From a virus, in IMG/VR virus record IMGVR_UViG_3300042934_000594, positions 205,431 through 269,430 of that record: 64,000 nt of DNA; one strand, written 5' to 3'. The position numbers were made by a program, and so were the translations under genes. Position 1 is the first letter of the stretch. Every line of letters starts with the position of its first letter. The notes beneath the pieces were generated by a model. The model did not search any database. It was not told where the DNA came from and saw only the letters and a program-made list of their open reading frames with translations. Shown here piece after piece: positions 34,961 through 40,651 of this stretch.

Positions 34961-37081
34961 TTACCAGTTACTCAGGTATGCCGGTACGGACACACGAGGT
35001 GCACACACCACCTGAGGCATGAAGTCTTCTTGACTGATCATGATGTCAGTGCCGTCAAACAGCGCCTGAACGTGTCGGTGCATCAGACGGTTCTCATCCA
35101 GCTCCTGCTCGTCATCGAACGCTTCCACCGCCACCCCTTCAGCAAAGGGTGACTTGATCCCCATGATGGCTTCCACCATTTCCTGCGACCAGGCCAGGAT
35201 GTCCGCTGAACGGGTCGAGATGTTCGGCCGGTCACCGGTGTCCAAGCGTACCTTCCACACCACGGTCTGGGTAGTCGCCCCGATCCGGTGGATACGGGAA
35301 ATGGCCTGCTCATTGATGTATGCCCGGAAGGGATCGTTGAGCATGATCATGTTGTCCGCCATCACCAGCGGTACCGCGGTGGACAGTGAGTTGAAGGTGG
35401 CAAGCAGCGGGTTGATGTGCACGTCCGATTCAAACCGAGCCACGGTGTTGGCCAACTCGTTGTTGGTCTTACCGTAGACCGTCAGTGGATTGAGTCCCAC
35501 TGTGGAACAGTGCCGGTCCATCGCTTCCAGCGCTTCTACAAAGCTGGTGAACACCACCGTCTTCTTGGTGGTCGAGTCGCAGACCCCCACAAAGTCAACA
35601 TGAGGTACCATCGCTACGTGGCATTCAATCCGAGCCCGCCCCAGGACACGCCCTAAGCACTCGCCCTGGATCTTAAGCGACACGTACTTGATGATGGTCT
35701 TGGTCTCCTTAAACCGTTCCACCATCTCCCGGGGGAGTGTGGGTTGGAAGACCTTCTTCTCGTACACGTTGCAAAAGCGGATCTCTTCCCCGATGTACCG
35801 AGGGTCCGCAGTACGGACCACGATGTTCAGCACCCGCAAGTATTCACTGAACCCTTTACGGGCTGCTGTGCTTTTGAGGCTGGCTTCGTGAACACTCAAA
35901 CACTGTTTCCAGAAAGCTTCGTCCTCCTTACGGCATCCCTCGTAGTAACGGGACCGCTCCAGGATGAACTTTTGCATCAATCCCTTGATGGACTCCAAGG
36001 TGAAGGCGTCCCCATTGGGGATGGTCACCGGCAGGATCTTCATGATCGGATCAGCCAGCTTGAGCTCGGACTTCTCGACCTTGTAGGAGATCAACCCCAT
36101 GCGGTGCTTGAGAATGTCCAAGCCTTTATTCGCACTGGAGCCGTAGATCTTCTTGAAGCGCATCTCAGCATCAGCATTAAAGCGGGGATCAATGCTGCGT
36201 AGCATCGGGATGCATTCCGAACCCAAGGCTTTGATCGGTGTGCCCGAGGCCCACAGGGTGTCCTGCGAGTCCACCATCCGGTCAACCTCCAGGAAGTTCT
36301 GGGTGCGCTGACTGGTCAGTTCATTGAGGAAATGGGATTCGTCGAGAATCACCATCACCGACTTGCCTTCCTTGCGCAGCATCTCCGCAATGTGCTGGAT
36401 CTTGCCGAGGGATTCAAAGTGCACGATCAAGTACTTCTCACCGCGGTACTCGTGTCCTTGGGCCTCGATCCAGTAGGTCGGGGTTTCCTTGAACAGCTTG
36501 AGCATGCCGTCCTTTTCCCAGACCCGCTCGGTGGCGTTCAAGGGACAGGCCACCAGCACGTGATCCACGTCCAGGCACTCTGCCACCGCACAGCAGGTAA
36601 AGGTCTTACCCGAACCTGCCGCAGCAGCCAGTAGATAACCGCGCAGCCCGTAGGCGGTCACCAGGGTGCTGTAGGTCTCCAGGAAGCGCTGTTGGAACGG
36701 CAGCGGTGTGTACTTAAGCCGTGACAGGTTCTTAAGGTTCAGCCGCTCTGGAGCGTCTGCATCGGGCTTGGTGTTCTTAAGCCAGGTGTGCTCTTCCAGC
36801 GCATCACGCAGGTTGGTCAATACCCGCGTGGAAGTGAACCGTGATCGCTTGGTGGACACCAGGGTGTCCAGGATGTAGACGATCTCTGGGGCAAAGAAGG
36901 GGTTGAAGCTGAAACTGTTCTTACCGAAGTCTGAGAACATCCACTCATTGACTTTGGATGTCTTCCAAATGCGCAGGATGTCGCGCTGCATGATGTCACC
37001 GGGAATACCGCTGACTTCGATCAGGCGGTCAGTCGCGGTAACCTTGATTGTTCCTATTAGCCGCCGAAAGCCACCTAACAT
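34961..37081 (-). CDS. SNF2-like DEAD/H helicase
   Basis: 706 residues; GAGGTG before the ATG (MLGGFRRL), four codons inside the longest frame. Motifs of superfamily 2: Walker A LLAAAAGSGKTF (~153-160), motif II VILDESHF (DESH, ~247-250), and C-terminal TVVFTSFVEALEAM and INEQAISRIHRIG (motif VI, QxxxRxHRxG). The last is characteristic of SNF2/RapA-like ATPases. It is an ATP-driven DNA translocase that may remodel DNA-protein complexes during replication, repair or transcription. First gene of the minus-strand block after an intergenic region rich in promoter-like sequences. Confidence 0.85.
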   Translation of the reverse strand: MLGGFRRLIGTIKVTATDRLIEVSGIPGDIMQRDILRIWKTSKVNEWMFSDFGKNSFSFNPFFAPEIVYILDTLVSTKRSRFTSTRVLTNLRDALEEHTWLKNTKPDADAPERLNLKNLSRLKYTPLPFQQRFLETYSTLVTAYGLRGYLLAAAAGSGKTFTCCAVAECLDVDHVLVACPLNATERVWEKDGMLKLFKETPTYWIEAQGHEYRGEKYLIVHFESLGKIQHIAEMLRKEGKSVMVILDESHFLNELTSQRTQNFLEVDRMVDSQDTLWASGTPIKALGSECIPMLRSIDPRFNADAEMRFKKIYGSSANKGLDILKHRMGLISYKVEKSELKLADPIMKILPVTIPNGDAFTLESIKGLMQKFILERSRYYEGCRKEDEAFWKQCLSVHEASLKSTAARKGFSEYLRVLNIVVRTADPRYIGEEIRFCNVYEKKVFQPTLPREMVERFKETKTIIKYVSLKIQGECLGRVLGRARIECHVAMVPHVDFVGVCDSTTKKTVVFTSFVEALEAMDRHCSTVGLNPLTVYGKTNNELANTVARFESDVHINPLLATFNSLSTAVPLVMADNMIMLNDPFRAYINEQAISRIHRIGATTQTVVWKVRLDTGDRPNISTRSADILAWSQEMVEAIMGIKSPFAEGVAVEAFDDEQELDENRLMHRHVQALFDGTDIMISQEDFMPQVVCAPRVSVPAYLSNW

Positions 37082-37142
37082 GTTACACCTCAAAATGCTA
37101 AAGAAATCGGACCTATAGGATCTGATTGTAAAGGCTTTAGAG

Positions 37143-39494: not shown

Positions 39495-39821
39495 ATGACC
39501 AATTCTCGCACCCTCCACGACATCCTTCCAGCGGACCTCATCAAGGTCAACGCACTGCTGCAAGGCGTTAACCAGGAAGAGCTGGTGGAAAAAGCCCAGG
39601 CGGTTACCAAGCGCCTGACGCGCAAGTTCAGCAAGGACACTGCCGTGGCCCCCGCTGAGATCGTCCAGACTACTGTAGTCGCCATGCTCAAGGTTCTGGA
39701 CGGCACCGGCGGCCACCCGGGTTACATCGTCCTGGATCGGGAAAACCGTTTGAACGAGCCGCAGGCTAACGATTTGAGCGGTAAGTTGGTCGAGACGTAC
39801 TTTGACTTGATTAACGATTAA
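39495..39821 (+). CDS. INT-tail family protein 3 (minimal form)
   Basis: 108 residues; TAGGAA before ATG. Mostly the shared domain: QTTVVAMLKVLDGTGG, HPGYIVLD, then DLSGKLVETYFDLIND. The usual INT end is IND here. The preceding helix is charged. Last gene before the possible anti-16S RNA. Confidence 0.75.
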   Translation: MTNSRTLHDILPADLIKVNALLQGVNQEELVEKAQAVTKRLTRKFSKDTAVAPAEIVQTTVVAMLKVLDGTGGHPGYIVLDRENRLNEPQANDLSGKLVETYFDLIND

Positions 39822-39827
39822 TCATGT

Positions 39828-39984
39828 TATGTACAGGTGTATTGTAGTTGACACCTAGGAGGTGATCCAGCCTGCTGTTGTTACCCCGGGGTTATTTGCA
39901 CTCGCTGTGAAGCGACTTCGTAGCCCCAACGACTGCCTGTACGACCCCCGTCACCCCCTCCCCTTACCGGGAGGGGTTTTATTT
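39828..39984 (+). ncRNA. Candidate small RNA complementary to the 16S rRNA 3' end
   Basis: A gene-free stretch. TTATG and CAGGTGTA (39,827-39,840) resemble the end of the promoter elements at 22,993 and 28,045. AGGAGGTGATCCAGCC at 39,857-39,872 is the exact complement of GGCTGGATCACCTCCT, the Pseudomonas-type 16S rRNA end that includes the anti-Shine-Dalgarno. No ATG or GTG lies at a usable distance downstream. CACCT AGG AGGTG (39,852-39,864) forms a small hairpin that could mask the site. The unit ends at a good terminator. The match is seen; transcription and function are inferred. An alternative is an over-long ribosome site of an unseen leader peptide. Confidence 0.5.
39955..39984 (+). 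terminator. Intrinsic terminator of the candidate small RNA
   Basis: CCCCTCCC CTTACC GGGAGGGG followed by TTTTATTT. Confidence 0.85.
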
Positions 39985-40006: not shown

Positions 40007-40651
40007 ATGGAAGACAATTTCTGCATACAGCACGTGCCCGACTCTGAATGGCAAGCGAACCGTCAATGGTTGTTGACCACCCCCGAAGGAAAAACCATGC
40101 GGGTGAATGTAGGGCCTGAACGGCGCCCTACTGACGTGCGTGTGCATGCCAACCCGATCGTGCCCGACGGTAACGTTCACCATGGCATCCCGGCCATGCT
40201 CACCAGCAGCGGCAGTATGTTGGAACTGCGCCATCCCGAGCATCCTGAATTCAGCCACGGTGTAGCGGGCATGAACATCTGGTTCAAGTACGACGCCCTG
40301 GTGAAGGCCACGGAGCAGGGCATATTTAACCTGATGCCCATGATCCCCTTCACGCATCGCATGATGATGTTGGACGGACTGACTTGGCGACAAGCTGAGC
40401 ACTTTACCGACGAGACCAGCTATGACCCCGTTGCGGTCTGTGCGTTTCTGTTCATCCCGTACAAATCCTGCGAAGGGCAATTGCATTTCCCCAAAGCGTT
40501 GCAAAGCGACAAATCACGCGCCCTTACTGTGACGATCGATGAGGAGCTGCGCCAGATCATCGACGACGAACGGGTGCAGATGTACCCCATCAACCCCGAT
40601 CAACTCAAGCACATGACGGTCAACGTGGATCAAGCGGTGAGGGTTCTCTGA
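40007..40651 (+). CDS. Unrecognised protein
   Basis: 214 residues; CTGAGGT before ATG. His-rich segments (NVHHGIPAML; RHPEHPEFSHG) and Met-rich helix (FNLMPMIPFTHRMMML). No family recognised. Translationally coupled (TGATG) to the next gene. Confidence 0.7.
   Translation: MEDNFCIQHVPDSEWQANRQWLLTTPEGKTMRVNVGPERRPTDVRVHANPIVPDGNVHHGIPAMLTSSGSMLELRHPEHPEFSHGVAGMNIWFKYDALVKATEQGIFNLMPMIPFTHRMMMLDGLTWRQAEHFTDETSYDPVAVCAFLFIPYKSCEGQLHFPKALQSDKSRALTVTIDEELRQIIDDERVQMYPINPDQLKHMTVNVDQAVRVL

Follow-up and report, generated by a model that had tools for sequence, protein, structure and literature searches.

Grad-seq of phiKZ at 10 min after infection identified two non-coding RNAs, the PHIKZ298 3′ UTR and the p40 5′ UTR, the latter partly sedimenting with the 30S subunit (PMC8545117). 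In Bacillota, the OLE RNA, about 600 nt in length, imitates part of the 30S Shine-Dalgarno (SD)/anti-SD duplex and binds bS21 through an SD:anti-SD mimic of which both strands are internal (PMC12054373). Synthetic SD oligonucleotides pair in vitro with the 3′ end of 16S rRNA, thus acting in trans as complements of the anti-SD (PMC10901742). Trans-encoded base-pairing sRNAs have their own promoter-like motif, a terminator and a pairing segment held between hairpins, and target mRNA.

The RNA described here resembles the Grad-seq RNAs in being short, structured and non-coding and in belonging to the same phage group. However, those RNAs derive from UTRs at other loci (p40 near 114.5 kb in phiKZ, compared with 212.8 kb for the new RNA), and neither is the 16S-complementary RNA. 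Unlike OLE, it spans about 110–150 nt, carries only the 16S-complementary strand and has no Rfam match. Whereas the SD oligonucleotides are synthetic, it appears to be a natural, structured, phage-encoded gene; and it shares the layout of trans-encoded sRNAs, although its predicted target is rRNA and its pairing segment is invariant. Rfam 15 gave no gathering-score match in the window, where all matches to local stretches fell far below the gathering score, and none for the phiKZ or DT01 RNA. Within the literature searched, the family appears undescribed: no description was found, including in 2025/2026 reviews and a ribosome paper, the dedicated phiKZ transcriptome papers lying outside this scope, where a prior mention is possible. 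We know of no counterpart to a device that would capture the 30S subunit by RNA only.

Results

A complement of the 16S rRNA tail in a 185-bp gap

The window, i.e., the whole stretch of DNA analyzed, comprises the final 64 kb of a 269-kb virus record. It encodes an SNF2 helicase (34961–37093, minus strand) with 53% identity to the helicase of the Pseudomonas phage Noxifer; since this helicase is also common to phiKZ-like phages, the window virus is a relative of the nucleus-forming phages. An initial inspection made without database searches (the sequence-only reading) had reported a 16-base complement of the 16S 3′ end, and AGGAGGTGATCCAGCC, the complement of 16S nt 1525–1540, is indeed present at 39857–39872 on the plus strand. 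It lies in a 185-bp gap between an ORF that stops at 39821 and another that begins at 40007. The features of this gap, all on the plus strand, are the following:

39822–39945, plus strand: conserved structured RNA, matched by the covariance model over its full length, with the 9-nt promoter motif counted in
39828–39831, plus strand: TATG motif; +1 placed at G39831, the first base of P1, from the late-promoter consensus
39831–39837, plus strand: P1 5′ strand GTACAGG (closing helix), pairing with 39936–39942; about 99% of cells paired, with compensatory changes
39838–39853, plus strand: P2, 5′ hairpin region; weak in the window; the phiKZ and D6 groups have a strong GC hairpin here
39857–39872, plus strand: core AGGAGGTGATCCAGCC
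39888–39894, plus strand: P3a 5′ strand GGGGTTA, outer stem of the 3′ hairpin, from the window fold; mixed family support
39902–39915, plus strand: P3b hairpin TCGCT-GTGA-AGCGA with a GNRA tetraloop; two-sided change in all five pairs
39921–39927, plus strand: P3a 3′ strand TAGCCCC, from the window fold
39936–39942, plus strand: P1 3′ strand CCTGTAC, pairing with the P1 5′ strand
39953–39980, plus strand: Rho-independent-type terminator hairpin, then TTTTAT (window fold, z −2.8)

Only one exact copy of AGGAGGTGATCCAGCC exists in the whole 269-kb genome, and near-matches to its first 12 bases are about as frequent as chance predicts (5 seen, 5.3 expected). By arithmetic, the chance expectation for one given 16-mer in 64 kb, both strands included, is about 3e-5. 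The bare 16-mer was dropped as proof: 65 stretches in IMG/VR carry it, the majority apparently coding or ahead of a real start codon, and unrelated viral contigs have it too, with two uses that are specific to a lineage. Because 16 matching bases on their own prove little in large collections, conservation was used as the test, and the significance of the window 16-mer lies in its conservation at the matching position of an aligned RNA across 35 loci. As a separate observation, the 16-mer stands immediately 5′ of ATGAAGTAC in the viral contigs L004, L012, L021, L022, L040, L050, L061 and L068, apparently as an extended SD kept within a lineage, with 10 nt from AGGAGG to ATG.

Distribution and genomic setting

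When annotated phage records were searched for the core, two matches emerged, in the Pseudomonas phages D6 and RVTF4, each lying in the divergent gap ahead of the same helicase gene. These phages and a 305-kb environmental contig have a long block of conserved sequence around the core in common, and Psa21 also carries the core. In fourteen IMG/VR loci whose helicase-upstream gap was read, the core was present in most, and it was then located in phiKZ, PA7, PhiPA3, PA1C, Phabio and Viktualia. Absence of the 16-mer from all close relatives had been named in advance as grounds for giving up the claim; the opposite was found. A pattern search yielded a third group of jumbo contigs, in which P1′ is GCCTGTAC. 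One copy of the RNA each is carried by phiKZ, PhiPA3, PA1C, Noxifer, Phabio, Psa21, D6, RVTF4, Viktualia, DT01 and many environmental jumbo contigs. The phiKZ RNA, at 212,844–212,973 between PHIKZ203 and PHIKZ204, is matched by 57 Pseudomonas phage records, and no feature is annotated at its locus in the phiKZ-type annotated records among the matches listed.

Every named carrier is a Pseudomonas phage. Searches of the sampled Erwinia, Serratia, Klebsiella, Escherichia and Vibrio relatives and of one smaller (211-kb) Pseudomonas relative, run in part under strict filters that distant forms could escape, did not recover the RNA. Given its absence from the sampled non-Pseudomonas relatives, the RNA is not universal in the phage group. 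A weak model match in Klebsiella phage N1M2 (E 0.14, small search) was rejected, as the core variant AGGAAGTGATCCAG lies there in coding-looking sequence.

In phiKZ, PhiPA3, D6, RVTF4, Psa21, Noxifer and others, the helicase gene has the RNA in its upstream gap; in the window, 2.7 kb with several small ORFs separate the two, and in DT01 and the third group the RNA sits among other genes, about 17–43 kb from the helicase. These two settings, beside the helicase or tens of kb off, point to an independent unit rather than the leader of one gene. In the phiKZ and D6 groups, where examined, a TATATTAC element, which we take to be an early promoter, lies 3′ of the RNA terminator and 5′ of the next gene. 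The proteins flanking the gap had no functional match, and a search with the helicase against bacterial and archaeal genomes returned no relatives.

The helicase gene showed irregularities of its own. Its open frame reaches 954–1463 aa in some third-group phages (helicase loci G013, G016, G017, G018 and G022), compared with about 700 aa elsewhere, and the helicase matches of PhiPA3 and PA1C are split in two pieces, together suggesting inserted sequence in the gene. In contig L081, a putative GIY-YIG-type homing endonuclease ORF lies between the core (5164) and the helicase (6001), with the RNA ~700 bp away.

A covarying structure around the core

A covariance model (R1) was built on a hand-set structure from eight seed sequences, with the window left out. 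In a search of the whole 269-kb genome, R1 found the window RNA at full length (E=6.5e-4), with the P1 closing helix, the 16S-complementary core and the P3b GNRA hairpin in order, and it also found phiKZ, PhiPA3, PA1C, Phabio, Viktualia and Noxifer. The model rebuilt from 22 matches (R2), in whose seed the window was included and whose seed sequences match by construction, gave E=7.0e-13 for the window and E=2.0e-12 for DT01, with a single copy per genome in every carrier and, likewise, in each of ten additional jumbo contigs outside its seed. The order of elements is TATG or TATAG, the P1 5′ strand, the 5′ hairpin, the core, a variable stretch with the 3′ hairpin and its GNRA-type loop, the P1 3′ strand and the terminator.

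Across 34 distinct RNAs, 96.0% of modelled pair cells were standard, compared with an average of 71% for shuffles and 24–55% for slid structures; the pairing figure benefits from an alignment fitted to the structure, but the margin is large. Two-sided (compensatory) changes occurred in 14 of the 17 modelled pairs in this set, and the sequence around the core diverges (mean column identity 57%). The outer stem P3a is strong in the window (z −2.3), Noxifer, L074 and phiKZ, among others giving no signal in the same test. RNAalifold on a MAFFT alignment, in which the helices are misaligned, detected almost nothing. A CACCT/AGGTG hairpin proposed earlier to mask the core forms in the window fold but is not a family feature, as other members lack CACCT before the core. 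Judged from the alignment, phiKZ-like (nucleus-forming) Pseudomonas phages carry a non-coding RNA whose structure is conserved and whose 16S-complementary core is invariant.

Conservation of a structured body beyond the core, with a GNRA hairpin as a possible docking site, would suit an RNA that the core merely docks on ribosomes, while the function itself falls to P3 with its GNRA loop or to a phage protein bound to the RNA, e.g., by recruiting ribosomes to exported phage transcripts. Such a tether is quite unlikely in our assessment: we know of no protein partner of the RNA, which counts against it, and outside the core, P1 and the loop, the body has little conserved sequence. In its favor, host ribosomes are reportedly a target of phiKZ proteins (PMC10914614, as described in a review).

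The core matches the single-stranded 16S tail

Using what we take to be the Pseudomonas 16S tail sequence, its nucleotide numbering and the helix 45 boundary, core positions 0 to +12 pair with 16S 1540–1528 in 35/35 loci, the sole variation being A or G opposite U1537, both of which pair. On the 3′ side, +13 (C1527) pairs in 34/35, +14 (G1526) in 33/35 and G1525 in 27/35, and past +15 pairing falls away; toward the 16S 3′ end, U1541 pairs in 31/35 and A1542 in 25/35. The matched segment is therefore essentially the entire single-stranded tail, which starts where helix 45 ends and runs to the 3′ end, far more than an SD needs, as the sequence-only reading had maintained. The predicted RNA:16S duplex ranges from −31 to −41 kcal/mol across members, with −36.7 kcal/mol for the window core, and TAAGGGGGTGATCCAGTCGT of phiKZ could form 20 contiguous pairs with the 16S 3′ end, G-U included. 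In thermodynamic folds the core is only partly unpaired (mean 0.25–0.56). Elsewhere in the phiKZ genome, nothing matched the core or its complement with ≤1 mismatch. An invariant 13–14-nt segment in a fast-changing RNA is economically explained by pairing with the 16S tail.

A contiguous duplex of 14–20 bp, G-U pairs included, could also guide RNase III or a phage nuclease to remove the anti-SD and leave altered ribosomes. Phage genes keep their SD sites, however, and the adjacent proteins tested included no candidate nuclease, making such cleavage very improbable.

The RNA does not appear to be a host rRNA gene fragment, as its 16S similarity does not continue beyond the 3′ tail, with a weak CTACGG..CCTTG resemblance elsewhere. 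This 3′ part (CTACGG..CCTTG; L089:12856-12971, L070, L092, L076) resembles the complement of 16S about nt 1497–1514, with a member mean z of −1.6; the signal is strongest in PA1C, L082, PhiPA3 and L076, and stronger in the phiKZ/PhiPA3/PA1C group. We do not claim this second complementarity (CTACGG..ACCTTG, ~1497–1514), as the RNAs are related and the strand lies in P1.

Promoter, terminator and coding potential

In nearly all members, TATG or TATAG abuts P1 at the same place. The phiKZ late promoter consensus, recognized by the nvRNAP, is (−3)TATG(+1) (PMC7618050), and the motif of the RNA looks to be of this late class rather than the early one. Terminator-like hairpins were found in every member examined, as expected of a trans-encoded sRNA gene with an intrinsic terminator. 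Both the promoter-like TATG start and the terminator, noted previously in the 185-bp gap, thus held up, and from these motifs we infer that the RNA is transcribed. The family's terminator hairpins (39953–39980 in the window, and relatives) often end in TTATG(C/T)C, possibly a phage-specific termination signal.

A start codon 3–15 nt past AGGRGG is absent from 15 of 21 members and the remainder share no ORF, in agreement with the earlier remark that none stands at a usable distance. As far as these members indicate, the RNA is not an SD leader of a protein-coding gene. That the core matches by chance, or serves some small unannotated ORF as its ordinary or extended SD, might be argued from the real ATG that follows the 16-mer elsewhere in IMG/VR; the start-codon test and the recurrence of the same core in all 35 loci within a covarying structure refute this as far as sequence allows. 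We regard it as scarcely credible, and the initial judgment that the match is not fortuitous stands.

A late-type promoter would also suit a need to conserve ribosomes. Held double-stranded by the phage RNA, the 16S 3′ tail could deny RNase R and related exonucleases a start on 30S degradation, and the host ribosomes would be saved for the phage; the extension of pairing to the 16S 3′ end, reaching A1542, is consistent with this. Since an SD-type oligonucleotide shields 30S from RNase R in vitro (PMC10901742), such preservation is a serious rival. We nevertheless deem it unlikely, as A1542 pairing is less conserved than the core and a 14–18-bp duplex would need displacing before translation.

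Discussion

As a whole, we hold with moderate confidence that the locus is best explained as a late phage sRNA that pairs with the 16S tail on free 30S subunits. The gap would encode a small phage RNA, non-coding and about 110 nt long between +1 and the last base of P1 (about 150 nt once the terminator is counted), and the late RNA polymerase of the phage itself probably transcribes it. P1, the 5′ hairpin and the GNRA-capped 3′ hairpin would hold a 14–18-nt segment complementary to the 16S tail (about nt 1525–1542), which may base-pair with the tail on the free 30S, covering both the anti-SD and the 16S 3′ end. The RNA thereby probably grips the host small ribosomal subunit. Its most likely effect, later in infection, would be to withdraw some 30S subunits from ordinary SD initiation or to keep them for the phage; this effect on translation, like pairing in vivo, we infer from the conserved complementarity.

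An SD 4-mer precedes 59% of 78 annotated phiKZ genes, compared with 5% of random sites. Since phiKZ genes use SD sites, a global block would harm the phage too, and a decoy acting globally must approach the number of ribosomes. The earlier proposal of a phage RNA complementary to the 16S 3′ end thus survives as a non-coding jumbo-phage gene, whereas the host shut-off or favoring of phage mRNAs that it suggested becomes less likely: SD use by the phage genes and the late-looking promoter both argue against a simple early shut-off.

We consider it fairly likely that a natural trans-acting RNA of nucleus-forming phages captures the 30S subunit via the entire 16S 3′ tail, and so takes over or keeps ribosomes by RNA only. 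The means by which these phages redirect or preserve host ribosomes have so far been studied mainly through proteins. The RNA sits in phiKZ itself, a leading model of nucleus-forming phages, where it offers a small target for knock-down, pull-down and compensatory mutation of 16S. If the proposal is true, this would be, to our knowledge, the first known natural RNA acting in trans on the anti-Shine-Dalgarno.
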